A DNA stretch of 56,465 bases from Chrysophaeum taylorii (lineage: Eukaryota; Sar; Pelagophyceae; Pelagomonadales; Pelagomonadaceae): assembly GCA_029834535.1 (NCBI GenBank), contig JAQMWT010000559.1, positions 1-56,465 on the forward strand. The letters run 5' to 3'. Each line of letters starts with the position of its first letter. Positions within the stretch are counted from its first letter, which is position 1. Positions 1 through 44,697 of the stretch are shown here, piece after piece. The notes beneath the pieces are model-generated. The model had not been told where the DNA came from. It searched no databases and was given only the letters and a program-made list of their open reading frames with translations. Position numbers and translations under genes: made by a program.

Positions 1-66
1 GGCGGCACGTGACATCGGTTAGATGCAGAGAGCAGAGCGCGTGTCCAAGCTGTGGATATTGGGGGG

Positions 67-3272: not shown

Positions 3273-3323
3273 GGGGAAAGCTTTCCAGCAGCTTGGTCAC
3301 GGTGAGACATAAGGATCGGCAGC

Positions 3324-8271: not shown

Positions 8272-8567
8272 CCAGGTGTGGGTGTGTTAGGTGAGATTTT
8301 AGCGAACAGGTTGTATAGGGTAATGAATGCCGTGAGGCAAATGGGATTAGAAGACCCCTGTAATGGTTGAGTAGAAGATCTCCTAAAACCCAGGTGATGA
8401 TAAGTGCATTCAGAGTGGGACTTGTGAGTAGATTGTTCGAGAGCTTGCTGTGAATGAAGCCTGAGAAACAGAAGATTCAAGGTCTCAAGCTCATAGAGAC
8501 TTAGCCGAACGGAACCTGTGCGCGAATATAAAGGAAAGGTTTTAGGTGAGGAGATTGATGGTGGATC
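8272..8567 (-). pseudogene. Retrotransposon DNMT, C-terminal fragment (split gene, third piece)
   Basis: A minus-strand peptide starting at the duplicated GGATC and reading PPSISSPKTFPLYSRTGSVR, then LYELETLNLLFLRLHSQQ. It matches the C-terminal part of the copia DNMT at 24279-24800. The upstream part of the same gene is at 15351 and above; a copia element (8568-15350) separates the two. Removing that element and one GGATC joins the frames in phase (RVYLD then PPSI). The downstream end is cut by Helitron-like fragment 2. Confidence 0.75.
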
Positions 8568-8962
8568 TCCAGAGAGCGACACTATGATGTGTGCGACACT
8601 GGAACATTTCACACCGATCTCTACAAGAGGGTTTTCTCTCCGTAATACGGCTTTCCCTCCTTCCTTCCTTACCCTTCCGCAATTATATTTTTCACGATTA
8701 TGAAGAGCCCAGTCTGAAGCTCTTTTCCAACATGGAGTAGGGCTCCAGGTGCGTACCGTCAGGTACGGGGTTTTCTGTTTAATTAACGGAGGCTTCGTTC
8801 CTCGTTGTCAGTGTAAACGCTTCTATGGGACCTAATGTCCTTAAGGAGTTAGGGCTTAAATCCCTACTTTGTGTAGTAGCATGTGGCAAGCGGAATGGTC
8901 TGTACACGCCTAAGACTGCACGCAGTCTCTACCATGTACCCGGAGAGGGTCAAATCTCTCTA
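8568..8962 (+). repeat. 5' LTR of the plus-strand copia element
   Basis: Begins TCCAGAGAG and ends CTCTCTA. The partner is 14956-15350, and a third related copy lies inverted at 34626-35044. The ends are not TG/CA but are a short inverted pair (AGAG/CTCT). Confidence 0.88.
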
Positions 8963-8976
8963 GGTTATGGGCCCAG
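8963..8976 (+). other. Primer-binding site matching the initiator tRNA-Met anticodon arm
   Basis: GGTTATGGGCCCAG starts at the first base after the LTR. Its complement CTGGGCCCATAACC is the anticodon stem-loop of eukaryotic initiator tRNA-Met (anticodon CAU) and not the tRNA 3' end. This is the half-tRNA primer type known from Drosophila copia. Confidence 0.85.
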
Positions 8977-9525
8977 ATGCGTAGGTGTGTCAGCCCAACT
9001 GTGTTGTACGTATAAATGGAGTGATCAATTTACGCCTGATCACGAGTACAATGCGACAATGTGTTTGGCGGTGGTCTACTGTACATATTTGTTGTACGAC
9101 GGTATGTGCCCACCAGTTAAATTGGTTTGTGACCGAGTTGGGTCGGTCACTGGTCATATGCACTCGCATAGCCTATAAAATTAAAAATTTCCCTACACAA
9201 GCCGCGGAAACTTGTACGAGTTTTTCCTCCTATTCCCCAACAAAAGACTGTCTGCTCGAGAATTAATCCATTCTTCAGTCTCAAGTCATCCTGTTTTTTA
9301 ATAAGATGTTGATTTGTTTGGTCTTGTAAATAAGCCCACGCTTAAAATAGCGTACTGTACATATAACCCGCACTCGAGAAACCCTTCATTCTTATGTGTG
9401 GAATATGTCTATCAATCCTATAACCTATTCTTTAATAGGTCACAGCCAGGTCAAAACAAAAACCAATATCCAGTACGGATATCTACAAACAAGAACAAAT
9501 CCTCGTTGATAAAATTAACGCAGGA
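8977..9525 (+). other. Leader of the plus-strand copia element
   Basis: A/T-rich sequence between PBS and gag. It contains repeated GTAC-bearing words (TGTACATAT, GTACGTATAAAT) and a possible hairpin around GATCAATTTACGCCTGATC, but no convincing gene. Confidence 0.6.
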
Positions 9526-10972
9526 TTGCGTTTCCAAGACAACTCAACCAAGGTGAGCTTGCAAATTGAGGTGCTTCGCAGGCATATGACAAGTCCATAC
9601 GTGGACGCGTTATTCTGCTTCGATTCATATGAAGCTTACACCCGGAATGCTCCGGAGTACAACCCACTTCTTGAAGAAGAAGTTGATATCATCTTCGCTC
9701 AATGGAAAGCTGAACAAGTAAACGATTTAAACTTACCGGATGAAGATGCCCTGCCTGATCAACTTAAAACTTGGCACGTCAACTCATCACATCAACTGTC
9801 AGTTGATGTCCGTAATAATCTCGAACGACTTTACTACAAAGAGTCATACAATCTCGTTCGTCCCGAATTAAATGAGGATGTTAAACGTGCCCTCAATTTA
9901 TTAGATACCCGACTAAAAATCAATTGTGTATGATTCATCTCTAACTAACATATCCTTTACAGGTCTCTCTAATACCGACCGGATCAAACACTGCGAAACT
10001 TATGCTGGTTTCTTGTACACATTTTTTAATCTGGAATCACAAGACAAACCCACACTCGCTATGTGGTCTCAGTTAAAGAAGATATATGCACTTACTGCAC
10101 ATCCTAATAAACTACGTGCAGTAATGCTTTTACCTTACCATTACTATGAGACAGTGTCTTGTACAGATGTCACTGAGCTTGAATCTCAGTTTAATCGAAT
10201 GTCTTTAAATGTTAATTGGTATGCCCATGTATTTGTCGAACAACTCCTTGCTTTCCAATCTCAGGCAAAGCAATTGAATAATGATGAAGCATCAATCCAA
10301 TTTAATGATTCCATAATCACTCTTAAAGCTCACGAGGAGATCTACCGTCTATATGCTAGTCCCTCGGATCACGAGCGCTATTCTCAATCTTTATTGGAAT
10401 GGTGTAAACTATAATAGACACGCTCTAGTAACAACTCGAGTCACGATCCCGAATTGTTAAAGCTAGTTGATCCTAACGACGTTCGTCCACTATTGGACTT
10501 CTTGTTAAAGATATATAATGAGACAAAGTTTTCTTCTAACCGACGCTTGGATAAACCCGCTTCTTGGATCCCTTACATCCCTGGTACTACCGCTACCAAG
10601 CCACCTAAGGTATTATTGATGGACACTATTCATCAATCCCACGATTCTCCAAACAACGCTTACTCGTTGTTTGCTACTGTAGCTGGACAGTCTGGCTTCA
10701 ACGCTCGTAAGCTTCGTAATGCAAAAGATAAAGCATCGACAATTTTACCTCGTGACACGTCGTACTATCGTCCACCCTCAAATTATAACGTCAAAGGTGC
10801 CAGCTTCGATCGTCCTGTCTACTCACCCTCCCCTTACCGTAATGCACGCTCTAATATGTCTCTTATGGACCGGGCTACTTATCAAGTTGATCGTCTTCGC
10901 CACCTGTTTGGTAAACTACAGGAAGCGAATCCCAACCCCTCTACCGACTCTAAATGGTACAGGAGGAAATGA
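9526..10972 (+). pseudogene. gag of the copia-DNMT family (degraded)
   Basis: Three frames (9526-9933, 9926-10414, 10454-10972) of one alpha-helical structural protein, separated by a phase shift near 9930 and by two consecutive stops (TAA TAG) at 10412-10417. The C-terminal part shares FNARKLRNAKDK, SYYR and DRPVY with the minus-strand copy at 26754-27267 (FNARRLRNSKD, SYYR, DRPVY), which establishes homology. No CCHC zinc knuckle is visible. The 3' end overlaps the protease frame by 19 bases in another phase, probably because of one indel, since in the other copy gag and protease are in phase once a small insertion is removed. Confidence 0.65.
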
Positions 10973-12186
10973 AAAGCTTACTGAGTACCCTCTGGACAAC
11001 CGCTTCTCAAGCTTCGACACAGTCCTTAGATCCTGACGAAGCCACCCAAGTTCATCTCTACTTATCTCGAGTTGATACTATGTCCAATACCATAATAAAC
11101 CTCTTAGAAGCCGATAAGGAATCTCATGTTTCAGAAGAAAAGTATCAAGCTGAAACATCTGCTCCTGAAGCGTCCCCCAGTGATGCGGAGCAGAGGGGGA
11201 CTGCTGATACAGAGAAAAAGTTCCACACTTTTCTGTCCATTAAAGATGATGAAATCGATAACATCCCTCAGCCGCTATTGCAGCACATAAATGCTAAAGC
11301 TCAGAATGCTATCGTTCGTCGTCAAGCTCGGGGAACTTCCTCGCACTCTGAGCTCCCCAATAATCTACCCAACGAAGATAATGAAGATGGCACAGATCCC
11401 CCTGTGTTGCTACCAAAATTAAACACTGGTTTTACACTCGTCGTTGTGCCTTCCGAACAAACGCAAAGTTTCATGACACAGTACGTGTTTGGTCAAAGCT
11501 CAACACATGCCTGTTATGCAACAATGCTTAAACTGTACAACGAGTACAATTTGCCGCTAATGACTACGCCAGGATATGCTGACACATGTGCTTCTCAACA
11601 TGTAATTAACTTTAAACGTTATGCTGATCCTATCCACATCGTAAAGCTACCCGAGTCCTTATCACCTGCTATCCAGACTGCTACGGATACGCAGAGTATC
11701 ACACATGCTATGATTATAAGGACTGTCATTCCCGCTCTCCCAAAGCATCCAAATGTGGGATATGTAAAGCTAGACGTTGCGCTTTTTCTACCCAAGCAAA
11801 ACGACCATAACGATCCCGATCTGCACATCATCAGTATGACTCAATGGGGAGAAGATAAACTTGGTATACATCTTTATGGAGTTGAATTTAAAGGACAATT
11901 ATCTATCCAGAGTAAAATTGATGATAATGTCAAGATTACTTTGTTTAGACTCAATAACCTGTTGCCTACTATACCAATTTATTCGCTACAACAAGCAAAA
12001 GCGCGTGAAATGGAACTTCGCTCACTACAGTTCAGACTATGTGCTTTTAATGAACAACGCGAAATGCTTAAACTATATTCCACCCTCATGGAACGCGCAA
12101 TTTACGTCCCATGGCTTAAAACCATCCCGGAGTCAATGCATTCGCAGCTGCCTTACATACGCAAGCAGTTCTCACCTCCCGTATGA
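10954..12186 (+). CDS. Aspartic-protease-like domain of the copia polyprotein
   Basis: A 410-residue frame. Near 11581-11595 it reads YADTCASQHV, placed like the copia protease active site (normally D-S/T-G-A-S-x-H). Both copies here have Cys in place of the Gly (DTCAS here, DSCAS at about 26120-26134). Residues after it (THAMIIRTVIPALPKHPNVGYVKLDVALFL) correspond to the protease fold and match the minus copy (GIGYVKLDYALFL). A long tail of about 130 residues (ELRSLQFRLCAFNE) is shared as well. The frame ends in a TGA at 12184-12186, and the same phase then stays open into the DNMT domain. Confidence 0.65.
   Translation: MVQEEMKSLLSTLWTTASQASTQSLDPDEATQVHLYLSRVDTMSNTIINLLEADKESHVSEEKYQAETSAPEASPSDAEQRGTADTEKKFHTFLSIKDDEIDNIPQPLLQHINAKAQNAIVRRQARGTSSHSELPNNLPNEDNEDGTDPPVLLPKLNTGFTLVVVPSEQTQSFMTQYVFGQSSTHACYATMLKLYNEYNLPLMTTPGYADTCASQHVINFKRYADPIHIVKLPESLSPAIQTATDTQSITHAMIIRTVIPALPKHPNVGYVKLDVALFLPKQNDHNDPDLHIISMTQWGEDKLGIHLYGVEFKGQLSIQSKIDDNVKITLFRLNNLLPTIPIYSLQQAKAREMELRSLQFRLCAFNEQREMLKLYSTLMERAIYVPWLKTIPESMHSQLPYIRKQFSPPV
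12184..12186 (+). promoter_or_regulatory. In-phase UGA between protease and DNMT (candidate readthrough stop)
   Basis: GTA TGA CGC: the stop is followed by C, and the phase is open on both sides. The minus-strand copy has its stop at the same alignment position (25539-25541, ACC TGA CTA). There is no ATG between this stop and the first DNMT motif here, so separate initiation would lose motif I. Confidence 0.5.
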
Positions 12187-12204
12187 CGCAAGGTTACCAC
12201 ACGT

Positions 12205-13043
12205 TTGCTCCACACAGTAACTTCGTCTCCTAGCGCACGAACACCTACTGTAACTCTACTTTGCTCTGGGATCTCCACTCCTGCATTCTTGGCTTGCGCT
12301 TCTAATGACTTGCAAATCAACATCAACATTAAAGTTCTTGTTGAGAGCGACGACAATATCACGCACATGCTACGAAGACGTTTTGGTAATTCCATCGAAG
12401 TTATCCCATCCCTACCTAAGTTTCTGACATATCTCCATCGAGCATCGGACGCTGAACGTGCACGATATTACACCGATATAGTGGAATTGACATCACCATG
12501 CACAAATCGCAACATAATCAATGGGAGATCCATTTCCACCTTCGAGCGTGATATGGATGATTCCTTGTTTCCAAGTGCTCTAAGTGTGCTTGAGCTTTTA
12601 AAGCCGCTTGTTCTTTTCATGGAAATGACACCACCACACTCCGCATCGTATGAAGAGCATATACGAGTTGCCAATCTCATATTCTCAACGATGCATTATA
12701 CGGTGGATATATGTGACCGATTTCCGTGCTATCTGTGTGGAGATTATCAAGCCAGAGAAAGATGGATCCTCGTTGCACGCAAATATAACACTGGCCATCT
12801 TGATCTGCTTTCCTGGCCTAACAAACCAGTCACTTCCTTTCTGGATATTGCAGACCACGCTAACTCCATCAGTCGCAAGTTAATAGTCGACGAACCTTGG
12901 ACGCAAATCTTTCCCGACATACCACTCGTGTCCACACCTAAAACCTACAACATCGTTAGTCGTACAGGATCCGTGCGCTTAACTGTGACTGAGCTTGAAA
13001 CTTTAACTATGCTGTTCCTTCGTCTGCTAACTAAAATAACTTC
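12205..13043 (+). CDS. Cytosine-C5 DNA methyltransferase domain of copia-type element
   Basis: Counting from 12205: motif I LLCSGISTPAFLA (residues 18-30), the acidic residue of motif II in VLVESDD (E48), motif IV TSPCTNRN with the presumed catalytic Cys99 (codon 12499-12501), motif VI FMEMTPPH (E140), and motif VIII DYQARERWILVARK (Q182, R184, R186). Spacings C99-E140 and E140-R184 (41 and 44) are close to M.HhaI. The family transfers methyl groups from SAM to C5 of cytosine. There is no ATG at the start, so it is probably made as part of the polyprotein through the upstream UGA. The frame is free of stops but loses its C-terminus to the LINE derivative at 13027. Activity is unproven. Confidence 0.78.
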
Positions 13044-13389
13044 AGACCTCTCCCGAGCATGGGAGCCAGGCCGGACCGACAGGTGCCAGTCCGGAATCAC
13101 GGGCCTGTAGACGAGGAGCGCCGAAAGGTCGGTCGGCGGAGAGTGACCATCAAGCTTGTCGCCATGCGACGAGGAGACCGCGATGTGACTGACAACCAAC
13201 TCGTCGATAACCTTCCGTCTTCGCCCCCCGGCCATACCCCGTCCCACTGCGAACGTTCCGGCTGCCAACCGGCCCGCCCGGGAGGCGAATAGGTGCCAAC
13301 CTACGCCGGGAGGCCGGATGCCCTCGCAAGGCTCAGGATTCATGAGGCACCGTCCTCCATCGCAACCGCAGTCGGCGATCAGGGTAAGG
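13027..13389 (-). mobile_element. Short LINE derivative A
   Basis: A 363-bp element, 3' tail at left (CTAACTAAAATAACTTCAG), 5' end at right (GATCAGGGTAAGG). It is nearly identical to copies B (17893-18255) and C (23687-24057) and shares its last ~60 bp and first ~25 bp with the full LINE at 28534-32009. It has no coding sequence. No target duplication is visible, unlike copies C, D and E. Confidence 0.8.
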
Positions 13390-13560
13390 GTAGTGTACAA
13401 AATGTTATAACAAAACCGATATGCCGGGTACACCCCTTGTACTCATCATATGCACTGAAGATGAGCTTAAAACGGACAGGATACGACAAATTATTGAGGA
13501 TCATCTCGCGTCTGAGCAACATGCATCGCACTGCTTCGATGTACCGCGCCCTTCTTTCTG
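13390..13560 (+). other. Remnant between LINE derivative A and the coiled-coil ORF
   Basis: Short frames in shifting phase, including a peptide CTEDELKTDRIRQIIEDHL. This is probably the damaged N-terminal part of the coiled-coil protein. No independent gene. Confidence 0.35.
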
Positions 13561-14838
13561 TTGATTTGTGTGATGTGTAACTTGTCGAATCACGGGATAG
13601 CGTTAATTCGCAATAATCAGCACCCCTTCCAACTCTCTTGCTATAATGATCCAGCTGCCCACATAAGAGCTATAATCCTCCGCCTTGGAAAGTCCATTGC
13701 TATTAACAAGCTGCTCAAAGAGGCGCTCATGCAGATTGCAACATCCCTTAACGTTGATGCTTCTAAAATTCTCGTAAACCCTGACGCTCACGCCCCGCTT
13801 TTACTTCAGGTGCCCTTCATTTCGAATGTAAATCTTGAGATCCTTGTAGCAGCTTGGTCTTTGCTACAGTCCGTTGAAGATAAAACCGGTGTAGTTACCA
13901 ATCCTGAGGAGTTACTTAATGTGCTCATCGAACGCTTTGTTAACGATGTTTCTCATCAACTTGACGCAACTTCTTCCGAGACGGTACCGCCGATGCTTAA
14001 CTACTTTCGCCAACTTTCACCTGATCAACAATTAGCATTTAAAAACGTGTTAATCCAAGTTGGCTACCCATCCCACATAATTGATACCTTCTCTGATAAT
14101 ACCTCTTCTGAAGGTGTGTCACCAGTGCCGATCGATAATCCACCCGCTGAGCCCACGCCAGATAAAGCTAACGACGATATGGCTGAATCTTTACACCAAT
14201 TAAAAGAAGAGATTCGGTCTTTATCTTTACGTGTCACTAACACCGAACAGCAATTGATGGCACGAGAACATCAATCGCTTGCACTGACTTCTCTCACACA
14301 GATGCAAGAGACCTACGAAACACTAAATACTCTAGTGACCGAGAACATCAAACATGTTTCTTTGTTAGATAACATATTGTCAAGTCTTCAAATTCATCAG
14401 AACACCATAATCCCGACCTCTGCAGTGTTTATCCATATCATTTCTCGGTCGCTTATCTCGTCTATTGGACAGTTCCCTCCAGATACGTATAATGAGGCAC
14501 AGCGAGTTCTAATCGACGCAGCTGCTCACAGCCTCCACACAGCTATGTCTGATGCACATGATCGTGTTATTCCTGCATTGGATCTACACGCTCTTACACC
14601 AGATGCTGCTATGTCCTTCCTCTCGTCTGTTATGTCACCCTTGGTCACCTTGAGTGATGCAATGACTACGCACAACACCAACACTGCTAACGACCTATCC
14701 TCCGATGATCATAATTCGTCTTCTCCAGAGTTAAAGGAACTGGACGATAATAGCGAGGATGAATTGGACCACACATCTGATGTTGTGGATACCGATACCG
14801 CTTCTTTACGCAACATCACAACACGCTCGACATCATAA
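13561..14838 (+). CDS. C-terminal coiled-coil protein of the copia-DNMT family
   Basis: A 425-residue frame, last before the purine tract and the 3' LTR; the first ATG is at 13573. It is alpha-helical, with a heptad-rich stretch around residues 205-270 (LHQLKEEIRSLSLRV, then TEQQL) and an acidic, Asp/Ser-rich tail. A related coiled-coil frame lies at 18256-18654 (minus strand), downstream of RNase H in the long copy, so it seems to be a shared extra protein at the 3' end. I recognise no known family. Such a position is used by some retroelements for envelope-like or extra structural proteins, but no signal peptide or membrane span is visible. Confidence 0.55.
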   Translation: MICVMCNLSNHGIALIRNNQHPFQLSCYNDPAAHIRAIILRLGKSIAINKLLKEALMQIATSLNVDASKILVNPDAHAPLLLQVPFISNVNLEILVAAWSLLQSVEDKTGVVTNPEELLNVLIERFVNDVSHQLDATSSETVPPMLNYFRQLSPDQQLAFKNVLIQVGYPSHIIDTFSDNTSSEGVSPVPIDNPPAEPTPDKANDDMAESLHQLKEEIRSLSLRVTNTEQQLMAREHQSLALTSLTQMQETYETLNTLVTENIKHVSLLDNILSSLQIHQNTIIPTSAVFIHIISRSLISSIGQFPPDTYNEAQRVLIDAAAHSLHTAMSDAHDRVIPALDLHALTPDAAMSFLSSVMSPLVTLSDAMTTHNTNTANDLSSDDHNSSSPELKELDDNSEDELDHTSDVVDTDTASLRNITTRSTS

Positions 14839-14948
14839 TTAATTTGTCCTGTTTTGTTGTTGTTTGTTCCATTGTTCACTGTTCTCATGTATATTGCACA
14901 AGTTCCGCCTCAAGAACGTCTGAAATGCACAAACCATTTTCACACGTT

Positions 14949-14955
14949 GAGGGGG
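14949..14955 (+). other. Polypurine tract (GAGGGGG)
   Basis: Lies immediately upstream of the 3' LTR, the expected place for plus-strand priming. The related inverted LTR at 34626-35044 keeps the same tract. Confidence 0.75.
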
Positions 14956-15350
14956 TCCAGAGAGCTACACTATTATGTGTGCGACACTGGAACATCACAC
15001 ACCAATCTCTACAAGAGGGTTTTCTCTCCGTAATACGGCTTTCCCTCCTTCCTTCCTTCCCCTTCCGCAATTATATTTTTCATGACTATGAAGAACCCAG
15101 TCTGAAGCTCTTTTCCAACATGGAGTAGGCCTCCAGGTGCGTACCGTCAGGTACGGGGTTTTCTGTTTAATTAACAGAGGCTTCGTTCCTCGTTGTCAGT
15201 GTAAACGCTTCTATGGGACCTAGTGTCCTTAAGGAGTTGGGGCTTAAATCCCTACCTTGTGTAGTAGCATGTGGCAAGCGGAATGGTCTGTACACGCCTA
15301 AGACTGCACGCAGTCTCTACCATGTACCCGGAGAGGGTCAAATCTCTCTA
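14956..15350 (+). repeat. 3' LTR of the plus-strand copia element
   Basis: Begins TCCAGAGAG, ends CTCTCTA, same length as 8568-8962 with roughly 14 substitutions. It is followed by GGATC, the target duplication. Confidence 0.88.
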
Positions 15351-15539
15351 GGATCAAGGTATACGCGAATCCAATCTTTCGCTAAGTCCTCAGGTAACCA
15401 GAGTGCCTTGGAGACGGAATTGATGTCGTCCGCAATGTCCAAGAAACACTTGGGGTGCTGGTTGGGCCAGGAAAGCATATCAATGCAACCTGTGTTATAT
15501 CTGCGAGCAGCACAAATCCATCTTGCTCTAGATTGATAA
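15351..15539 (-). pseudogene. Retrotransposon DNMT fragment (split gene, second piece)
   Basis: The minus-strand sequence encodes RARWICAARRYNTG and then SWPNQHPKCFLDIADD-type residues, matching the end of motif VIII and the following region of the copia DNMT (compare RYNTG and SWPNQHPKRFLD at 24880-24970). It is bounded on the right by LINE derivative E and on the left by the 3' LTR of the plus-strand copia element; the gene resumes at 8567. The phase is continuous across both insertions when they and one target duplicate are taken out. Confidence 0.75.
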
Positions 15540-15938
15540 CTAAACTAACTTCAGACCTCTCCCAAGCATGGGAGCCAGGCCGGACCGGCAGGAGCCGGTA
15601 CGGAATCACAGAGGAAAATCACGCAGTTGGGGCAGAGGCGAGGGACGAGGACGGACTTGTTGATGGTGGACCGTCACTGCGCGCGGTCTTGTGCGAGGTC
15701 GTGCAAAAGCGTCGCAGGCCGCGGACGTGTTGGTCCACGAACAATCGACCTGTCCGTCGCGTTCTGCCCAACCGAGCGAACCCCATCCCAGCGCGGACTT
15801 TCCGGGTGCTAACCGGCCAGCCCGGGAGGCGAGCAGGCACCGTCTCACTCCGGGACGGCCGGGGACGCCGCAGGGAGCAAGCGTGTTAGGCGCCGTCCTC
15901 CATCGCAAACAACGGTTAGCGATCGCAGGGTTAGGGTC
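15540..15938 (-). mobile_element. Internally deleted LINE copy E
   Basis: A 399-bp copy of the 28534-32009 LINE. It keeps the 3' end (about 170 bp, ending within the RT C-terminal codons near the equivalent of 28700) fused directly to the 5' end (from the equivalent of about 31785), so about 3.1 kb is missing. Target duplication AGATTGATA is at 15531-15539 and 15939-15947. Confidence 0.85.
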
Positions 15939-16319
15939 AGATTGATAGTCGCCACAAATATAGGTTGGAAATCGGTCGACCACATCAACTGTATAGTGAA
16001 GTGTGGCGTGGATGAGGTTAGCCACTGAAATGTGATCCCGGTGGACCTGCTTGTGGGGAGGCGTCATCTCCGCTAGCAGAACCAGAGGTTTGAGTAAGCT
16101 GATGACAGCGAGCATACTATCAAATAGAGCATCGTCAAGTAGACTAACCAAATCGGATGTCTTGGTGCTCTTTAGCAGATTCCGATTGGCACAAGGAGGG
16201 GTAAGTTCGATGATGTCACAATATAGCTTCCGTCTTTCTTCTTCGGAAATTGAGTGAAGGTGGTTAATGAAAGAGGGAATGGATTGAAAAATGACAACAT
16301 CAGGGAATCGTTTACGTAA
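15939..16319 (-). pseudogene. Retrotransposon DNMT fragment with the catalytic motif (split gene)
   Basis: Minus-strand frame carrying MLRKRFPDVVIF, then motif IV ELTPPCANRN (catalytic Cys codon 16191-16193), motif VI LLAEMTPPH and the start of motif VIII CGDYQS. This is the least changed motif IV in the window (PPC). The piece is continuous with 17774-17892 (motif I) once the Helitron-like fragment is removed, and with 15351-15539 once LINE copy E is removed. Confidence 0.8.
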
Positions 16320-16324
16320 CACAA

Positions 16325-16680
16325 GTGCAGACCAGTAAGTTCACCTAGTCCCAATCTCTAACCCCAGTAAGTTCACCTGTTCCCGTTGAGTTCACCTAGT
16401 CCCAATCTCTAACCTCAGTAAATTCGGCGTAAACCCACTCGTGCTCACATCCACTCACCCCACTCTCACTTGAACTCGTCGCTCTCACCCCCGCCAATCT
16501 AAGCTGCTTTGATCCGCACACGCCGCTAACCTTTGAGTTTACTCTAAAAACCCCAGTAAGTTCACTTGGTCCCAGTAAGTTCGCCTGGTCACTAAAGTTC
16601 ACCTAGTCCCAATCTCCAACCTCCGTAAGTTCACCTGGTTCCAGTAAGTTCACCTGGCCCCAGTAAGTTCACCTACAGTG
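16325..16680. repeat. Minisatellite of Helitron-like fragment 3
   Basis: Same degenerate CCAGTAAGTTCACCTGG units as at 6665-7080, again at the 3' side of a helicase fragment. Confidence 0.8.
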
Positions 16681-16689
16681 CGCGTGTAG

Positions 16690-17262
16690 ACGCCGGGAGG
16701 GGGCTTATCGGTATTGCGCAGCACGTGTGGGGTAGGGTGGAGTCGTCGACTCAGAAGAGCATATCCTCGGGGTTGCCGATCGACAGAGAGCCATGTAGAG
16801 CTGGACGTGACAGAAGACGGGCTTGGGCAAGAGGACGCCGACCTCGCGGGGCGTCTGACCCTGGCTCTTGTTGATCGTTTGGCGTCTGCGGGCCTTAAGG
16901 GATACAGGTTGGAGGAGCCTCGGTGACACGACACGATCGATCATGTATCTGGTACCGTTGCAGTGGCCGTGCGACGGGTCGAGGTTGCGAAGACTTTAAG
17001 CTCGCGCTCAAAGTCAGCATGCCGTTGGTTGTCAGGGAGTCGAAAACTCGACTGTAAAGAGCGAGGCGTCGTCTTCCGACCCAGCCTAGTCAGCCGAAAA
17101 GAACTCCGACGCCTCGTCTCCGGGAAAGGCCGCGGTCATGCGCGCGTTGTCAGCATCGACAACATCGTTTCGACGGGGCGTGAGAATGGCGCGCTGAAAG
17201 AGCCGCCGCGGGTCGTGGAAATAGTCTGCGAGGTCGCCGTAGACGGCTTCGAGGATCAATGG
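16690..17262 (-). pseudogene. Helitron-type helicase C-terminal fragment, copy 3
   Basis: Minus-strand peptides NKSQGQTPREVGVLLPKPVF and QLYMALCR in one phase and the Ser/Arg-rich shadow in another. Upstream DNA still encodes the GDLADYF and RAILTPRR segments. The Leu-Tyr-Val-Ala-Leu-Ser-Arg box is changed to LYMALCR. Frameshifts exclude a functional helicase. Confidence 0.7.
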
Positions 17263-17612
17263 CTGGCTCGCGGGCCTACCTGATCCTTACCCTGAATCGG
17301 GGGACAAGCAAACAGCGCATCGCTGCGCGAACCAGGGTGGCAAGCGGCTGCGCCAACTTCACAGAGGCAAAGGCGGCCCAAACTCGCCGCATCTACCGTG
17401 AGTGGGGGATCGCCAGCGCATTAGGCCGGGCTCGCTGTGCCCTCACCTCCCTCACCCATGTCGCCGCCTCGGGGAACCCCACCCAGGCCGCCCGATCCCA
17501 GCAGGACGTCACCCTTCGTCGCACATACGTCCGGCGGCAGCATGCGTACGACCTACGGGCGGAGCCCGTCCTCTCTTCGCCTGCCCCACGACTCGGCGAT
17601 GACCCCGACTAG
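17259..17612 (+). CDS. Conserved Ala/Arg-rich open frame, copy 2
   Basis: 117 residues, sharing FTEAKAAQTRRIYREWGIA and RRTYVRRQHAYDLR with 7671-7979. It includes an extra N-terminal segment (KQRIAARTRVASGC). Function unknown; coding status uncertain as for the first copy. Confidence 0.25.
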   Translation: MAGSRAYLILTLNRGTSKQRIAARTRVASGCANFTEAKAAQTRRIYREWGIASALGRARCALTSLTHVAASGNPTQAARSQQDVTLRRTYVRRQHAYDLRAEPVLSSPAPRLGDDPD

Positions 17613-17773
17613 GTCCCGCGTACTTATCTCCGCCCGTCAGGCACATCCCTCCTACCCCACACACCCACCCACATCCTTCATGCTCCCCACACACACACCC
17701 CTCTTAGCAGTCGACATTTAAAGACAAACAAACAAACAGACAAACAGACAAACATCTGTCGATTAGTAGTAAG

Positions 17774-17892
17774 GATGCGCACAAGAGTATCATCAGACTC
17801 GACAGTAACTTTGACATTGATGTTCAAGACGAAGTCATCATTGGCTTGTGACAAAAACGCAGGGGTTGATAGCCCAGAACATAATAACATAA
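17774..17892 (-). pseudogene. Retrotransposon DNMT fragment with motif I (split gene, first piece)
   Basis: The minus strand reads MLLCSGLSTPAFLSQANDD and then VTVESDDTLVRI, the SAM-binding motif I and motif II region. The Helitron-like fragment interrupts it before LRKRF at 16319. The upstream (protease) side is cut by LINE derivative B. Confidence 0.78.
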
Positions 17893-18255
17893 CCCTTACC
17901 CTGATCGCCGACTGCGGTTGCGATGGAGGACGGTGCCTCATGAATCCTGAGCCTTGCGAGGGCATCCGCCCTCCCGGCGTAGGTTGGCACCTATTCGCCT
18001 CCCGGGCGGGCCGGTTGGCAGCCGGAACGTTCGCAGTGGGACGGGGTATGGCCGGGGGGCGAAGACGGAAGGTTATCGACGAGTTGGTTGTCAGTCACAT
18101 CGCGGTCTCCTCGTCGCATAGCGACAAGCTTGATGGTCACTCTCCGCCGACCGACCTTTCGGCGCTCCTCGTCTACAGGCCCGTGATTCCGGACTGGCAC
18201 CTGTCGGTCCGGCCTGGCTCCCATGCTCGGGAGAGGTCTGAAGTTAGTTAGTTAG
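17893..18255 (+). mobile_element. Short LINE derivative B
   Basis: A 363-bp copy in plus orientation ending GTTAGTTAGTTAG. It is nearly identical to A and C. It lies between the coiled-coil frame (18256-18654) and a DNMT motif I (17892), which are not neighbours in the intact gene order, and has no visible target duplication. Confidence 0.8.
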
Positions 18256-19355: not shown

Positions 19356-19951
19356 CGTGTAGATAGGGCTTTGCTCCGAGAAGAGCCGTCAGGGTTATTG
19401 GACGTGTGGACGGCAGCCGCGTTGTCAGACAAGAGAGGTAGGCTTCTGATGAAGCGCATATCATCGGCAATAGGATTGTTGTCCGCATCAAAATCGGTTG
19501 GGGATCAGCTTGCGTGTTGATGTAGAATGTTTGGTTAACCACAAACGAGAGCTCGAGAAGTAGTTTGCGGAGCCATACTGCTTCATCAGCACAAATGTTT
19601 AGTGCAATGAGCCCAGCTTCGTGGGTAGAACACGATATGATAGGTTGTAACTGCTTTTCCACGCGACGAGGCAGTTGAACAGGTAGAAGACAATGCCTGT
19701 AGTGGACTTCCTATCTTCCTGTTCCAGCGAAGGAGCATTGTCAGCATCCACCATAGCAACCAGGGGTCGAACTTGCCCGTTGCAATATCTTTGTCCTGAT
19801 AGTCGACTATGGTCGATAAGTCAATTCGGTTAGAGGAGATAACGCGCAAGTGATTCTCGATAGCGTCCCCTTTAGGGTGAAACCAGAGACGAAGAGCTCG
19901 TTTGGCTGGTTTACTGAGGTACCGTAGGAGGCGGCCGAGCATCTTGAACAT
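19207..19951 (-). pseudogene. Copia RNase H domain
   Basis: Minus-strand frames with LLRYLSKPAKRALRL (the connection to RT) and STHEAGLIALNICADEAVWLRKLL, which matches the copia RNase H motif (S-T-x-E-A-E-x-x-A-x-x-x-x-x-x-E-x-x-W-L). It is broken by two frameshifts. The domain degrades the RNA of the RNA-DNA hybrid during reverse transcription. A close relative is at 53117-53979. Confidence 0.8.
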
Positions 19952-20960
19952 GCACGTACGTAGGGGAGTGCATGCCTCGGGAACAACGTCCTAGAGCTTG
20001 AGAGAAATCTGGGCGACAGGCGACTTGCATAAAGACCAACTTGCCAAGTAATGTAGCGAAGTGGTTGTGTATATAGATTTCCACATCAGTGGAAGGAGAG
20101 CCTTCCTTGTAAGTGAAAGTTGATGACATAGGATACTTCAGCGGAGTGAGTGTCTTCAGTATAGGGTGCTCGTCGAACAGCGAGTCTAGTTTGGCTTGGA
20201 CGTCTAAAGATATGGATCCATCAGAAGTCCTGCAGACGCGCATTCCCAGAAGAGTATGGACTGGCTCGAACTGTTCCACGGAGAAGCGCTTGTGTAGTGC
20301 TTCTTGGAGCTCAGTGCGCAGGGTATCATCATTCGCAACTATAACGATATCATCCACAGATAAACAGCAGATGAGGAATCGAGCGTGAGTAGTTGTGCGG
20401 ACATACAAACATGTGTCCGCATGGAGTCGTTTATACCCAAGATTCCGAAAGAAGCTGTCGATCTCCTTGTTCCATAGAGAGGGAGATTGCCTGAGTCCGT
20501 AGAGAGACTTAAGCAACTTGGGTAAGCGACGGCCACGGTATTTATCGTCTTGAGGATCGAGTAACTTGATACCATCGGGAAGCTGTACGTAGACGTGCGC
20601 GTCTATGTCGGACTGGACGAACGCGTTAGGCACGTCGCTGTGGTACACGGGTAGGTTATTGTAAGCAGCATAGCTAAGATGACACGTATAGCAGTCATCG
20701 TCGCCATGGGACTGAACGTCCCAAAGAAATCGGCGCCACGTGAAGCTAAGAAACCACGCAAGACTGACCGAGCCTTGTGCTTGATATACTCCCCGGAGGA
20801 GTTGGTCTTGATCTTGAGTACCAGGCGACTGTCAATTGGACGAGTCGAAGCATCAGGTAGAGCTAGCTTGAAGCACCCGAAGCGCACTATATCGTGCAGC
20901 TCCTTTGCAATCGCCTTGATGTAAGCTTGCCGGTCTTCGGGAGTAAGTCCTTGTAGACAC
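19911..20960 (-). pseudogene. Copia reverse transcriptase
   Basis: Typical Ty1/copia RT blocks: KARSVLRGFLASRGADFFGTFSPMA (20720-20790), YHSDVPNAFVQSDIDAHVYV, LKSLYGLRQSPSLWNK, and the catalytic box as CLSVDDIVIV (about 20330-20350), where YVDD has become SVDD. It then continues LLGMRV and KLVFMQVACRPD. One frameshift near 20640 divides it. The N-terminal block is in the frame ending near 20603. Confidence 0.88.
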
Positions 20961-22228: not shown

Positions 22229-23644
22229 TCACTCCCTAATATTTTTGGGGGGATCATGTTGAGGTGTGGTCATTTGATTATAAAGGAATCGAGGTGGGCT
22301 AATGATGGCGTGGTGAATGCGCTCGAGTGAGGCATTCGGTAAAATATTGTATGATTGGATTGTATGGACCACCGCCCACGGAAAGTGGACTGCAGGTTCC
22401 ACGATCTTGGCACCACGATAATGGGCGTTGAGAAGGTTACGGAGGCGAGTTGAGGAGGCAGAAGCAATAAAACCTATGCTCTTTTCGACCTCGTGATTAA
22501 AATGATGAAGGTAAGGCGGGAACGCAACGAGGCTGATGCCTTTGTCTACCCGGCAGGGGGTAGTAATGTGTCGGCTGAAGTACGGCCGGAACGCGTCGGA
22601 GTATACCGCACGAAAATGTACATTTAGTTGTGTCTTGCAAAAGGCGAACAAGTAGTCCAGGGCTTGCGTGAATTCGGTCGCGTTGGTAGTGCGCGTAAAG
22701 TAAGCCAGTAGGAATTTTGACAGTAGTTCTCTGAATACAATGATGCGAGTGAAGCCGCCCCATTCATAGGGAATGGTGACGTTGCCACCATCGCAAGCCC
22801 AGACCTCACCTGGTCGGTGAGTGTGTTCAAAGTTGGGCTTGGTTTCGTTAGCATGGGCGTGGCGGTGACGTTTGTTGTGGCAAATGCAGTCTATGCACAT
22901 ATCCCTGTAGGGAATGTCGGATGCTGAGAAGCCAGGGCGAGCATGGACGCCTGGGGCTTTGGCGGCAGCGTTATCAGGACAGTGATGTACATTGTGGAAG
23001 CGGCTGGCGCGTTCTTTGGCATTTTGGTATTCGACGGTGCCATGGGCGAGTGATTTGCGAGGGATTGCTTTGACCGGGATGTGTTTCTTCCGACGGACAT
23101 TGAATTTGAGCTCTGTGGATGCGTCTAATGATGGGGCATCAGGATCATCGTTAGTGTCAGCATCATCAGCAGTGGGAGTTATAGCAAGGGCTTCCTCGGG
23201 TGTTGTTCCGGAGGAACGGTAGTTTAGCGACTTTTCGGTCCAGCTGCAGTTGGAAATGTGACTCATGAATGCAGCCGCCTGGAAGATAGTGTCTGAGCTG
23301 TGACTGGAAAGAAGCAGCTCACAGGTGAGGAAGGTATATGCGTAAGTCTTCTTCAAGGTAGCATTGTCATGTTGAAAGGAAGGGTTCAACATAAGTGACT
23401 TCATATCGGCGACCACGCGACAGATGTGGGTGTAAAGGATGTGACAAGTGCCCGCAGGTAGAGCATTGCTGAGTAGGTCGCAGCATAAGTCTTTCTGCAA
23501 TGAAAGTAAGAAGGACGTCTGGAAGCGAGTGTGGTTGTGGGCTTTGATAAGTTCGGCTCGCGTAGGGTAGCGGAGTTTGCCGTTACGAGGGTCCAACAAG
23601 ATGATATCGGCATATCCTCGGATAGCTGGCAATGGAGCCGACAT
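22229..23644 (-). CDS. Copia integrase with N-terminal extension
   Basis: A 471-residue frame without stops, ATG at 23644. Residues 215-258 hold a zinc-binding region (FHNVHHC, then CIDC). The core shows D285 (VWACDGGN), D350 (AVYSDAFRPYF) and a Glu in NHEVEKSIG (E385 or E387), a DDE arrangement. The integrase inserts the cDNA into the genome. Residues 1-135 are an unrecognised helical domain ending in TEKSLNYR, a motif found at three other places in this polyprotein. LINE derivative C lies 31 bases upstream and separates it from the DNMT. This is the best preserved pol part of the element. Confidence 0.85.
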   Translation of the reverse strand: MSAPLPAIRGYADIILLDPRNGKLRYPTRAELIKAHNHTRFQTSFLLSLQKDLCCDLLSNALPAGTCHILYTHICRVVADMKSLMLNPSFQHDNATLKKTYAYTFLTCELLLSSHSSDTIFQAAAFMSHISNCSWTEKSLNYRSSGTTPEEALAITPTADDADTNDDPDAPSLDASTELKFNVRRKKHIPVKAIPRKSLAHGTVEYQNAKERASRFHNVHHCPDNAAAKAPGVHARPGFSASDIPYRDMCIDCICHNKRHRHAHANETKPNFEHTHRPGEVWACDGGNVTIPYEWGGFTRIIVFRELLSKFLLAYFTRTTNATEFTQALDYLFAFCKTQLNVHFRAVYSDAFRPYFSRHITTPCRVDKGISLVAFPPYLHHFNHEVEKSIGFIASASSTRLRNLLNAHYRGAKIVEPAVHFPWAVVHTIQSYNILPNASLERIHHAIISPPRFLYNQMTTPQHDPPKNIRE

Positions 23645-23686
23645 ATAGTGAATTTTGGATCCGAGCTTGCGGTCGCTGCCGCGTAA

Positions 23687-24068: not shown

Positions 24069-25478
24069 GTAGCCAATATACCTGCTATGAGAAAGATGGT
24101 GATCTTCAAATGAAAAATATCTGTCCTTTAAAGTGAATTGGTCGGAGGATTGGTCGTATGAGAAACAGTCCGGCATAACAAGAGAGCACTGTTGGAGCAA
24201 GTTGCGGATAGCAGGGACAGTGTTGTGGGCTGCGTTGACAAGGGGGTAGGCTTGCACTAGCCATTGGCATCCTTGAAACTAGTCGAGATGGGGCTTCTTA
24301 TCGGCGGGATTATCGCTGGCGATTCGGGTGTAAGTAGATCCATATGCGTCAATGGAAGCCTGATATTTGCTTGCTTTGTTCTCAACTAGTAAGTTGCCAT
24401 CAGAGTGGTGTCCACCGGTAAGAGTGTGGATATTGAATGTAGATGAGGAAGTTGTAAGAAATAGCGTAGGAGCGGGCTGGTTAGTTTCGAAAATCGCAAC
24501 ATAGTAAGATACCGGTGTAGCGTTGTTCGGCGAGATTCTGGCGAACAAATTGTATGGGGTGATAAATGCCTTGGGGCGAAGAGGATTTGATGACCCGGGT
24601 AGTGGTTGATTAGAAGACCTCTTGAAGCCAAGGTGATGATAGGAACACTCCGAGTGCGTTTTATGTGTATGTTGTTCGAAAGCTTGCTGTGAATGAAGCC
24701 TGAGGAAGAGTAGGTTGTGGGTCTCAAGCTCATAGAAGTTTAACCGAACGGAGCCAGTACGAGAGTACAAAGGAAACGTCTTGGGGGAGTGAACCAATGG
24801 TGGATCTGGGTAAGTGCGGACCCAGCCTCGAGACAGAGTCTTGGAGAGCCAGAGGGTTTTAGGGACTGAGTTAGCGTCATCTGCTGTGTCCAAGAAGCGC
24901 TTCGGGTGCTGGTTCGGCCAGGACAGGATGTCCATGGGTCCAGTGTTGTACCTGCGAGCAATGCAGATCATCATCGTCCCGAGATTGATAATCGACGCAC
25001 AGATAGGCAGGGAGGCGGTCGACTACATCAACAGTGTAGTCCAGTGTGGCGTGAATGAGGTTAGCTAATGAGATGTGATCCCCGTGAATGTACTTGTGAG
25101 GGGGTGTCATCTCCGCAAGTAGAACTAAGGGTTTGAGTGGTTTGATGACAGATAGCATACTGTAAAAGAGGGAGTCATCGAGCAAACTGGCCAAGTCGGA
25201 TGTTTTGGTGCTCTCGAGAAGGTTTCGGTTGGTACAAGGGGAGTGATTTCTATCACATTACAGTAAAAATTCCGTATTTCATCCTCCGTTATAGACTGGA
25301 GATGGTTGAGGAAGGAGGGTAGAGATTCGAAAATAATAATCTTTGGAAAGTGTTTGCGCAACATGCGTACAAGCGTTTCGTCGGACTCAACAGCAATCTT
25401 AACGTGGATGTTTAAGCCCAAGTCATTGGTGGCCTGTGACAAGAACGCAGGTGTTGAGAATCCAGAGCATAGTAACAT
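24069..25478 (-). pseudogene. Cytosine-C5 DNA methyltransferase of the long copia element (frameshifted)
   Basis: The minus-strand frame from ATG 25478 has motif I MLLCSGFSTPAFLSQA and IAVESDETLVRML. At motif IV one base appears lost (ITPLVPTE where the relatives read ITP-P-C-TNRN), so the catalytic Cys is out of phase from about 25245. The next frame (24877-25194) gives LLAEMTPPH (motif VI) and VDYQSR (start of motif VIII), then shifts again to MMICIARRYNTG (24974). The C-terminal region (LYSRTGSVRL, ELETHNLLFLRL) is shared with both other copies. A further conserved C-terminal extension runs to 24069. Inactive as written. Confidence 0.8.
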
Positions 25479-25538
25479 GATTGTTGGTTTGCGAGAGCCA
25501 TTGTTGGTAGTTGTTAGGAATGCTGGACGAGTGCGTAG

Positions 25539-26584
25539 TCAGGTGAGAGGTGGAGTGTTGTTTCTTACATATTCATTCTGCTTCCGAAGGTTGAGAAGTA
25601 GAGTACGCAGCCACGGTCGAGTTTTGAGCTTGGTGACCAGGTAATTGTAATAGTGGCAAAGGTCACGGTTTTCGTTGTACCTCTTCAGCGGGAAGGATAG
25701 TGAACGTAGCTCAAGGTTCCTATCTCGCGCAAGTGTGTAGGGTAGACACGGTAGTGCCGGGGGGTCGTGGTCGACGTAGTGAATGGGCACATGCACGTCT
25801 TTATCAAGTAGAGTAGTGAGATGCGACATATTTGGCTGTTCACTGTCATTGAGAGTGACAGTTAGCTGAGCCTTGTTCCACTCAGGGGCACTTAGGATAA
25901 AGAAGTGTCGATCCTGCACCGGTTTGAGGAACAGGGCATAGTCAAGCTTGACGTAGCCAATGCCTGGGTGGGCAGGTAAGGGGGATACTATATTTTCGTA
26001 ACCATGATATGCGACACCTGCTGTTGTCCAGTGGCAGTTTGGACAACTGGGGCACATTTAGCGTCTACGGGAACAATGTGGTTCGGTAGAGCAACATCAA
26101 ATGTGGTCATAAGCGAGATGGAAGCACAACTGTCCAAGTATAGAAATTGAAAATGGAGGGGAAGATTGTGGTCTCTCCGGTATTTGGTGAGAAAAGCGTT
26201 TTCGCAGGGTACACAGGTAGAAGGAATGCTGGCTGCGAACAAATTAGTTTGAGTGAGCAGTTTTGAGGTGACCACAACTTGTGAAAGGGTAATAGGAACG
26301 ACGGGCGCGGTAGGTTCCCCGTTGTCCTTGCCGAGACCGTTGTTAAGATCGAAGGGTGAGAGATCTTGTGGGTTGCTCGACAATGTAGTATTGACCGCTG
26401 CTTGATCGGAACTCCTTCGGCACATTGCTGCAGTGACATGTGACGAGAGCTCCGTAAGTCGCTCAGGTGACAATTTTGCTATGGCGTCCGCAGTAAAATT
26501 GACTGATTCCGCGGCAGCAGCAGTGGCGGGTGACGAACTGATACCACTTGCGTTAGATGGAGTAGAGGAGTTGGGTGCAGACAC
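25539..26584 (-). pseudogene. Aspartic-protease-like domain of the long copia element
   Basis: Two overlapping minus-strand frames (25988-26584 and 25539-26057). The active-site region reads FLYLDSCASISL (about 26120-26134), with Cys where retropepsins have Gly, as in the plus-strand copy. The second frame holds GIGYVKLDYALFL and the long tail LELRSLSFPLKRYNENRD. It ends ACC TGA CTA at 25539-25541; beyond that stop the same phase is open into DNMT motif I. Upstream lies SLNYGG (about 26600-26615), in phase with gag when the small LINE insertion D is ignored. Confidence 0.65.
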
Positions 26585-26673
26585 AGTATGTTGGTCCCCC
26601 CCATAGTTTAACGACGTTGCGGTCGAAAGCAGATTTATGTGAACGTTCCGAACGATATCTTCGGCATAGGAAA

Positions 26674-26741
26674 CTAACTAACTAACTAACTTCAGACCTC
26701 TCCCGAGCATGGGAGCCAGGCCGGACCGACAGGTGCCAGTC
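26674..26741 (-). mobile_element. 5'-truncated LINE insertion D (68 bp)
   Basis: Only the last ~50 bp of the LINE family plus its CTAA-repeat tail. It is flanked by the 12-bp target duplication CGGCATAGGAAA (26662-26673 and 26742-26753). This is a typical product of aborted target-primed reverse transcription. It interrupts the gag-protease junction. Confidence 0.88.
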
Positions 26742-41106: not shown

Positions 41107-42230
41107 TCACGATATAGCCATTGCGAAGTCAGTGTTCAACTGCTTGCAAAACAAACTTCCGGCTGGTTTGACTCCCAAAGGTAGACGCATGTAGCTGTAC
41201 GCTCCCAGAGGACTAGTGAAGGTGACCACATCTTGTGCATCCAGCGACAATCGTAAATTGTGATAGCCCCAACGAATATCCAAACTGGAACGACAGAACT
41301 TGTCAATGAGAAACATCAACGCGTCAGCCATGCTCACACTCGGCCAGCTATCATCCTTGAGCAATGCATTGAGGCGCCGTAGGTCGACAGCTGCTCTGTA
41401 AGCATTGGAAGTGCCAGGCTCAGCACCTTTCTTAGGCAACATCAAAATAGGGAAACCCCATGGAGAATTCGCGGGACGAATAACTCCGTCTCGGGTCCAT
41501 GCTTCAATCTGCATCCGCAAACATTCAATCTTTTCTTTCGATAACCGATATGGCGAGAGTTTGACGGGAGTCGGGTTCTCTTCTTTGAACCGGAGCGTCA
41601 CTTCAGGTGAATCAACAGGTCTCATCACATCATCGAAAAATGCCCACGAATACGAGATTAAATGCTTCATCATCAGCTTCTCGTCATCATCGAAGGCAGG
41701 ATGCTCTGTAATACCCAAGTCAGTCATCACCTCTTCGACCTGTGCGACGGTCGGAGGGATGACCTGCATGCTCTCCTGATCCGCTAAATGAGGAGGCATC
41801 ACCGGTGAAGGTTGACCATGTTCGTCGTGAGGCGCGTCCGCCCACGGAACGTCGTACGTATTGAAATACGCTGGTCGCTCTTTCGCGGTGCCTTCTTCTT
41901 CAGCAGTTGCGGAGGGCTGGTTATCAACTTGGTTGTTCTGCATAACAGCAGTGGCGACGGTGCCCCCTGCAAAAGATGAAGCCGTCCCAGGCGATGTAAC
42001 TGAAGGTGGTGGCGGGGTGGTGGTGGCAGCAGCGGATGGTGCAGGACTCGCAGAAGAGTAGAGTTCATCGGGCGCAATCCATGCTACACTTCGAGTGGCA
42101 GGGTCGAGCGTTGGAATGCGCGACTCTACAGCAAAAGGTGAAAACCGTAGAATATGGTGATCAGGTTGGGCTAGCGTAGTCGTCGCAATATTCCGCAACT
42201 TACCCAAATTTCGAAGTGAAGGTTCAAACG
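41107..42230 (-). CDS. Gypsy linker and RT N-terminal half
   Basis: C-terminal part of the 589-residue frame that begins at 42876. After a Pro/Ser/Ala-rich linker it reads VKLSPYRLSKEKIECLR, GFPILMLPKKGAEPG, YRAAVDLRRLNALL, and FTSPLGAYSYMRLPLGVKPAG, the fingers and palm blocks of Ty3/gypsy RT. The linker (residues 215-420) contains no D-S/T-G protease motif. The frame ends at a stop directly before the YIDD box because of a single frameshift. Confidence 0.9.
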
Positions 42231-44241: not shown

Positions 44242-44697
44242 GATCGCGATTTGCCCGGATAATATGTTTGTTCTGGATGTTCACAACTCACTTGTTGTAT
44301 TCTTTTCGTCAGACGACAATTGCCGGCAGCCGTCTGACTACTGCGCGCTGTACCGGTGCGCTGGTCTTACGGAAGCATTTGCCTTGCGCGTGAAGACTAT
44401 GGACGGCCTTCCCGGTGTAGTCGCTCGCCGTCAGGGAGGTGGTCTGCCTCGCACGAGCCAGTTAGGTCTCACGATACTGCCTTACAGTATGACGATCGAT
44501 ATGCAAAAGTATACAAAATGAGTCGATATGCAAAAGTATGCAAAATGAGTCGCAGTGACTCGGCTCCCCGTTCGATCCGAATCACGTAAAATGAACCCCG
44601 CGGAGGTACCCGTGATCCTCTGGATCTTCACCCACAAATGCGTCGGCTTCGCACTCACTCGACCGTTACGAACCGACTCGCCGCCGAGAAACAGGAG

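Follow-up and report, generated by a model that had tools for sequence, protein, structure and literature searches.

The stretch analysed here, 56,465 nucleotides of contig JAQMWT010000559.1 from the pelagophyte Chrysophaeum taylorii (hereafter the window), carries three copies of a Ty1/copia-type retrotransposon whose polyprotein includes a domain resembling C5-cytosine DNA methyltransferases (DNMT). A first-pass annotation had claimed three such copies, and tblastn found all of them: element A, element B and an interrupted one, copy 3. Their features are given below (LTR, long terminal repeat; ORF, open reading frame; RT, reverse transcriptase).

8568..8962, forward strand: 5' LTR of element A, its end positions set by the flanking duplication GGATC
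8963..8976, forward strand: putative primer-binding site of element A, GGTTATGGGCCCAG, directly 3' of the 5' LTR
9439..10972, forward strand: presumed gag region of element A, in several frames (ORFs 9439-9933, 9917-10414 and 10418-10972), assigned by position only
10954..12186, forward strand: protease ORF of element A, ending at UGA, with the motif DTCAS at about 11581-11595, 201 codons before the UGA; no Pfam match
12184..12186, forward strand: in-frame UGA of element A (UGA CGC AAG), conserved genome-wide
12187..13024, forward strand: DNMT domain of element A, from a motif I-like to a motif IX-like stretch, within the ORF 12187-13110
13025..13391, forward strand: insert of about 367 bp in element A, with other copies at 17892-18257 and 23691-24052 (98-99% identical)
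13516..14838, forward strand: C-terminal part of the third ORF of element A, seen through genome matches; no Pfam match
14956..15350, forward strand: 3' LTR of element A, a direct repeat of the 5' LTR, preceded by TTGAGGGGG
25988..26677, reverse strand: protease ORF of element B, from the ORF list, with the motif LDSCAS
25539..25541, reverse strand: in-frame UGA of element B, then CUA (reads TGA CTA CGC)
24687..25538, reverse strand: DNMT domain of element B, in two reading frames (shifted and back)
22229..23686, reverse strand: integrase ORF of element B (rve, E 0.0012, 19.5 bits, under the Pfam cut-off of 32.6)
19911..20831, reverse strand: RT of element B (RVT_2, E 4.8e-28)
15353..17893, reverse strand: N-terminal and middle parts of the copy 3 DNMT, interrupted (tblastn 17893-17771, 16322-15939 and 15538-15353)
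8272..8567, reverse strand: C-terminal part of the copy 3 DNMT, beyond element A (tblastn 8567-8448; repeat 8285-8568)

Element A is bounded by direct repeats (8568-8964 and 14956-15352) with 96.5% identity over 397 aligned bases, and is flanked by a 5-bp duplication, GGATC, at 8563-8567 and 15351-15355. By these LTRs and the duplication, element A is an LTR element inserted in the DNMT gene of copy 3. It lacks integrase and RT; its open DNMT frame is followed by the 367-bp repeat and then by the end of the third ORF. The repeat, of about 365-367 bp, has a CTAA-repeat end and is present three times in or beside the DNMT elements. The annotation had also placed a protease before the DNMT in two copies, as the motifs of A and B bear out, and integrase and RT downstream in one copy, which is element B, its rve match falling below the cut-off. 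The conserved UGA, a second copia lineage, the third ORF and the absence of integrase and RT from copy A go beyond that annotation.

The copia identity and the layout of a full element are drawn from copies across the 70.8-Mb genome. Locus L067 has a single natural ORF of 1691 amino acids (aa) that comprises the DNMT (residues 1-285), rve (784-866; E 0.0076, a weak match), SH3_retrovirus (E 5.6e-4) and RVT_2 (1431-1651; E 7.7e-42). Integrase precedes RT in L067 and in element B, which is the copia order. A 5-bp target duplication is seen for one element (A, window 8563-15355). A protease-like motif, [DE][ST][CG]A[ST], lies 196-201 codons upstream of the UGA in 26 of 46 loci, in the variants DTCAS, DSCAS, DSCAT and one ETCAS; several of the other 20 loci are short upstream or frame-shifted, and a few places are present twice in this count. 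The 14 bases of GGTTATGGGCCCAG are complementary to the anticodon arm of initiator tRNA-Met. The arm sequence occurs at nine genome sites; ARAGORN called no tRNA in the two of these that were fetched, and a first tRNA search pattern gave no match. Half-tRNA priming is known from Drosophila copia, and the complementarity of GGTTATGGGCCCAG hints at a similar priming here.

The third-ORF stretch 13516-14838 has 100 genome matches; in 11 of these the surrounding frame spans 684 aa, and lengths of 670-680 aa are frequent. In contigs C509, C668, C37 and C311 the third ORF is found 6.7-8.0 kb downstream of the start of the DNMT, both being on one strand; the distance departs from this range in C603 and C362. 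From this comparison of match coordinates, full elements seem to end in the third ORF. Pieced together from several copies, the element order is LTR, gag-protease, UGA, DNMT-integrase-RT, third ORF, LTR. The copy A DNMT has at least 136 genome matches, and the C-terminal part of the copy B DNMT at least 151, with identity down to 52% among the matches listed and many of them in frames of 700-1691 aa; the DNMT of a gypsy element in the same window, described below, has at least 156. These are lower bounds that include partial matches, and the matches may overlap. Three contig pairs (C10/C297, C25/C521 and C6/C268) have near-identical matches at near-identical positions; since they look like haplotypes or duplicated contigs, the copy counts may be somewhat inflated.

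The UGA is the most constant feature of the junction between protease and DNMT. In element A the TGA at 12184-12186 closes the protease frame, and the DNMT frame begins with the codon that follows, without a change of frame. Genome-wide, with a pattern that allowed any codon at this place, TGA is found in 100 of the 100 subfamily A sites listed (of 145) and in 98 of the 100 subfamily C sites listed (of 114), the other two having TGG and CGA. The codon after the TGA in these 98 sites is CTA in 56, ATG in 24, ATA in 12, TTA in 3, ATC in 2 and ATT in 1. Among loci that were cut out, TGA is in frame in 32 of 33 from subfamily A, the remaining one being out of frame (two places are counted twice), and is seen in 23 of 29 others, some of the six without it having other sequence inserted there. 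Across 12 aligned copies, selected because their start could be read, the T, G and A are invariant amid varying neighbouring bases. Because the in-frame UGA directly precedes the DNMT, synthesis of DNMT-integrase-RT needs the stop to be bypassed, and a stop that persists within a polyprotein under selection must have a use. The layout suggests that bypass would occur by readthrough. The sequence UGA CUA is known to promote strong readthrough and can act alone, according to the part of PMC4973966 available.

Selection on the polyprotein was estimated from pairwise Nei-Gojobori ratios of nonsynonymous to synonymous substitution (dN/dS) in 15 copies that stay open over 724 codons or more (subfamily A, 8 copies and 28 pairs; subfamily C, 7 copies and 21 pairs). 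In subfamily A the ratio is 0.065 for the DNMT and 0.150 for the linker-integrase stretch next to it; the corresponding values in subfamily C are 0.160 and 0.217. The ratio is below 1 for the DNMT in all estimable pairs (27/27 in A and 21/21 in C), and in a 90-column block from motif III to VI it is 0.019 in A and 0.078 in C (20 of 21 pairs below 1). In a first run, made with 28 intact copies, the DNMT ratios were 0.076 (A) and 0.172 (C), and the downstream ones 0.337 and 0.254; the set was narrowed to 15 copies because the downstream values were inflated by frames that end early. Left out before the first run were L014 and L021 (the same places as L039 and L041), L037, L054 and L064, whose frames begin at another place, and every copy interrupted by a stop or shift within its first 400 codons; picking intact frames may bias dN/dS slightly downwards. 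Rather than the ratio near 1 beside a constrained integrase and RT that the annotation had set against its own claim, the DNMT has values far below 1 and below those of the linker-integrase stretch. The DNMT is under purifying selection.

With the codon that follows the UGA as number 1, the DNMT of element A has G28 in a motif I-like stretch, E53 in motif II, PC105 in motif IV, E146 in motif VI, R190/R192 in motif VIII and a motif IX-like stretch. The catalytic PC of motif IV and E of motif VI occur in order and are invariant in 21 of 21 sequences, a set made up of members of two copia lineages plus three public relatives; an alignment of the two lineages by themselves has P, C and E at the motif positions in 16 of 16 sequences. 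The annotation had described M.HhaI-like spacing. The E-to-R distance is indeed 44 in both (E119 and R163 of M.HhaI are named in PDB titles); the C-to-E distance is 41 against 38 in M.HhaI, whose motif IV cysteine is C81, and the residue numbers given in the annotation are 6 lower than those used here. The window copy matches PF00145 at E 0.17-0.21 and 11.4 bits (cut-off 22), which weakens the DNMT call. The best of 13 members of the lineage to which the window copies belong (lineage 1) is L052, from a sister subfamily, with 21.7 bits (E 1.6e-4) over motifs II-VIII, and the public relative P0002 exceeds the cut-off at 23.0 bits. When the predicted fold of a relative was searched with Foldseek, 50 of the 50 rows listed (of 82 at E ≤0.001) were C5 methyltransferases or a close kin enzyme, the best being insect DNMT2 (4h0n, E 2.4e-6). 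A prediction without a Rossmann-fold methyltransferase had been named in the annotation as fatal to its claim; this low-confidence model matches the C5 methyltransferase fold, and a second model is less clear-cut. We call the domain methyltransferase-like because its motif I departs from FxGxG; motif order, spacing and fold still stand.

A second copia lineage (lineage 2) carries a distantly related domain. A genome search with PF00145 gave 57 places, of which eight were cut out: two host genes and six copies of this further lineage (L003-L008). Two more loci of this lineage were fetched; its loci also include L071 and L072. In L071 (1-7454) a single natural ORF, 1952 aa long, encodes the protease-like motif LIDGGAS, followed by the DNMT, rve (E 0.0061) and RVT_2 (E 1.6e-38). 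Its DNMT is over the PF00145 cut-off (32.1 bits, E 1.1e-7), with TLPCQHLS as motif IV and ENVPP as motif VI; lineage 2 lacks one arginine of the motif VIII pair. In L071 the presumed gag is a separate ORF in a different frame from pol, the two overlapping by 40 bases, which would fit a -1 frameshift; lineage 2 thus seems to set its Gag:Pol ratio by another route. Between the two lineages, RT identity is 35% over 312 residues.

The third DNMT-bearing LTR lineage is represented by one feature of the window:

41107..44280, reverse strand: gypsy element bearing a DNMT of its own, with ASPPCIYG as motif IV (PF00145 E 7e-4), a nonsense codon lying inside the DNMT

The gypsy DNMT has an open frame in other genome copies, and has a canonical FAGAGG motif I and a motif X. 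Neither the copia nor the gypsy DNMTs find the other by profile.

A HMMER profile of lineage 1 with the public relatives P0001-P0003 finds 6 of 6 lineage-2 DNMTs at E 2.7e-7 to 4.8e-5, the best of 2300 shuffled decoys reaching 0.058; a repeat with longer stretches and 4400 decoys gave 2.1e-7 to 3.6e-5 and a best decoy of 1.1. Up to E 10, the lineage-1 profile had no match to the gypsy DNMT, to a Dnmt2-like gene or to the second host DNMT. In the reverse direction, the lineage-2 profile recovers P0003, P0002 and P0001 (E 2.9e-12 to 7.1e-6). It matches lineage-1 copies of the host weakly (best E 0.16 and 0.54), and it gives an unrelated window ORF (1371-3296, reverse strand) E 8e-5 through two weak stretches, so an E of about 1e-5 is no proof alone. 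HH-suite on thin alignments gave low probability throughout (4.3%, E 0.0095, for copia 1 against copia 2), with the copia 1-copia 2 alignment in register from motif II to VIII; the HMMER profiles with their decoys gave the clearer picture. As the lineage-1 profile finds the lineage-2 but not the gypsy DNMT, these comparisons point to one capture in copia and another in gypsy: copia probably acquired its DNMT once, in a copia ancestor, and gypsy separately. Two separate captures within copia were also considered and are less likely, given that this profile recovers every lineage-2 DNMT and neither the gypsy nor the host ones. The independent acquisition by copia and gypsy that the annotation proposed fits the absence of a mutual profile match; independence is likely, not proven.

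Of the two host genes, L001 is Dnmt2-like and adjoins a gene for a chlorophyll a/b-binding protein (E 1.2e-13), which presumably resembles fucoxanthin-chlorophyll proteins; this neighbour marks the host as photosynthetic, probably an alga whose plastid is secondary. L002 (1006-3537), probably a host DNMT, contains a complete PF00145 domain (E 7.9e-18) in a long open frame, reported as 2086 aa.

Relatives outside this genome were found among public proteins by a two-lineage profile, which gave three (P0001-P0003); residues 1-300 of a 1173-aa pol ORF, searched as a single sequence, and a profile of lineage 2 alone gave no match there. P0001, with 4 members and 43% identity across 98% of the query, comes from MMETSP, which collects protist transcriptomes, so that a transcribed relative exists; P0002 and P0003 are from ENA contigs.

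We propose, with moderate confidence, that these are Ty1/copia elements with a C5-cytosine-methyltransferase-type domain at the N-terminus of Pol, reached by bypass of a UGA and marking the element's cDNA before integration. Most ribosomes would halt at the UGA and yield Gag-protease, and a minority would pass it and yield Gag-protease-DNMT-integrase-RT. The DNMT would be dosed together with Pol and packed into particles, and most likely would methylate cytosines of the new cDNA, or of the cDNA-RNA hybrid, prior to integration. The new copy would arrive already marked. Enzyme activity, cDNA as substrate and a benefit to the element are steps that we infer. A wider version of the proposal is tentative, and we lean slightly against it: a self-methylating copia superfamily, with at least two copia lineages and a separate gypsy lineage having a methyltransferase in Pol, dosed by a leaky UGA in the largest copia lineage, marking cDNA, and forming a new shortened C5 methyltransferase branch with relatives beyond this genome.

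Several properties of the domain and of the stop codon weigh against the proposal. Only the first glycine (G28) of FxGxG is kept in motif I, which reads LCSGLSTPAF, motif VI has EMT in place of ENV, and a motif X of the standard form was not observed; judged by these motifs, binding of S-adenosylmethionine and catalysis are not assured. A PDB sequence-profile search gave no methyltransferase, only two ribosomal chains at E 0.22-0.25, and NCBIfam gave none in the two lineage-1 members tried. Both structure models are poor (mean predicted local distance difference test score 39.7 and 53.5), and in the Foldseek search with the second model oxidoreductases ranked among the methyltransferases and no row of any kind passed E 0.001. 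The observed/expected CpG ratio is 0.86-1.05 in copia-DNMT pieces, 1.13 in gypsy, 1.30 in a LINE (long interspersed nuclear element)-like element and 1.26-1.46 in two host loci, a comparison that is weak because composition differs and only two host loci are included; CpG depletion of the copia-DNMT pieces is at most mild. The motif departures, and the loss of one motif VIII arginine in lineage 2, would fit a domain that has kept the fold and lost the enzyme, serving as a nucleic-acid-binding or particle-assembly part of Pol. We consider this unlikely, though the most serious of the alternatives, in view of the invariance of P, C and E in all 21 sequences and the very low dN/dS of the motif III-VI block. 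It is likewise unlikely, to a somewhat greater degree, that the enzyme acts in a Dnmt2-like manner on RNA, either the genomic RNA of the element or its primer tRNA. Foldseek ranks an insect DNMT2 first, and the Symbiodinium LINE enzyme tested in yeast did not methylate DNA there, as reported in the available part of PMC5890265; however, the E-values of the top 16 rows, which include DNMT1, DNMT2, DIM2 and bacterial enzymes, differ by no more than a factor of five, so that no DNMT subfamily is indicated, and the SymbioDIRS DNMTs in the same source act on CG DNA. Stops inside the DNMT of a number of copies might suggest a passive passenger, a captured gene decaying with old copies, but dN/dS of 0.065-0.160, below 1 in every estimable pair, makes this hardly credible.

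As to the stop codon, 42 of the 98 subfamily C UGAs are followed by A or U, not C, and the 90 bases after the UGA contain no structure more stable than shuffled sequence in 7 of 7 cases (z -1.39 to 0.43). The gag-UGA-pol junction of Candida Tca2 gave no readthrough in S. cerevisiae (PMC2194720, in the part available), and for this reason bypass in the present elements is something we only infer. DNMT-integrase-RT could instead be made separately without readthrough, from a spliced or internally promoted RNA or by re-initiation at the UGA. Tca2 has a promoter at its junction (PMC2194720, same part), and UGA AUG at 24 of the 98 subfamily C sites listed would allow re-initiation there. Against this, no AUG directly follows the UGA in the other 74 C sites or the 100 A sites listed, the next methionine in subfamily A falls within motif I and is absent from the window copy, and a stop that is always UGA amid varying neighbours fits recoding. 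We judge separate synthesis improbable, about as much so as action on RNA. The constancy of the codon, which at every listed site with a stop is UGA and never UAA or UAG, also invites a reading as selenocysteine. Some algae have many selenoproteins, and families of the selenocysteine insertion sequence are included in Rfam. No Rfam family reached the gathering threshold in the window, L067, L039 or L041 (the last three without their 3' ends), the UGA stands at a domain boundary, and no cysteine counterpart was seen; selenocysteine is very improbable.

DNMTs have been described in retrotransposons before. According to the available sections of one study (de Mendoza et al., 2018; PMC5890265), they are present in Symbiodinium LINE and DIRS elements and in Klebsormidium gypsy elements, under purifying selection; the DIRS enzyme methylates CG, and the Symbiodinium copia elements are without any DNMT domain. 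The closest counterpart in those sections, KnitGypsy-Dnmt3 of Klebsormidium nitens, is likewise an LTR element with a C5 methyltransferase in Pol, several copies and purifying selection; it is, however, a gypsy element with a Dnmt3-assigned domain, whereas the present elements are copia, of unassigned DNMT family, and have a UGA before the DNMT. SymbioDIRS-Dnmt3 and SymbioLINE-Dnmt share a retrotransposon-borne methyltransferase but are DIRS and LINE elements (PMC5890265). One sentence of PMC12344493 names 'LTR Copia and DIRS' elements with DNMT3; it cites the 2018 paper, which describes gypsy, and that section gives no structure, UGA or host like those of the present elements. Tca2 of Candida albicans has a gag-UGA-pol arrangement that needs bypass, but the part of PMC2194720 available mentions no DNMT. 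The gypsy element of the window is also a DNMT-bearing LTR element, unlike the copia elements in its FAGAGG motif I and motif X and missed by the copia DNMT profiles. In the open-licence literature we found no other report of copia DNMT elements beyond the PMC12344493 sentence and none of a UGA before a DNMT; the available part of PMC9998398 does not mention copia DNMT elements. Retrotransposon DNMTs are thus already known, and what is new is the UGA gate, the second copia lineage and the presence of three DNMT-bearing LTR lineages in one genome.

The finding suggests that these copia elements may chemically mark their own DNA before insertion. Methylation is normally a means by which the host silences such elements; if it is true that elements of several superfamilies in a single genome keep a strongly selected methyltransferase, marking their own DNA must pay. 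The UGA would be a direct handle on this, as enzyme dose would be set by stop bypass. The many copies, with copia and gypsy DNMT elements side by side, make this genome a natural test of the role of retrotransposon DNMTs.

Elsewhere in the window, positions 2-4189 and 46116-50334 form a 4.2-kb inverted pair that is 90% identical and has long open frames. Positions 28540-31963 (reverse strand) hold the LINE-like element, with RT-like and endonuclease-like ORFs as judged by eye, and parts of the repeat of about 365-367 bp match its end.
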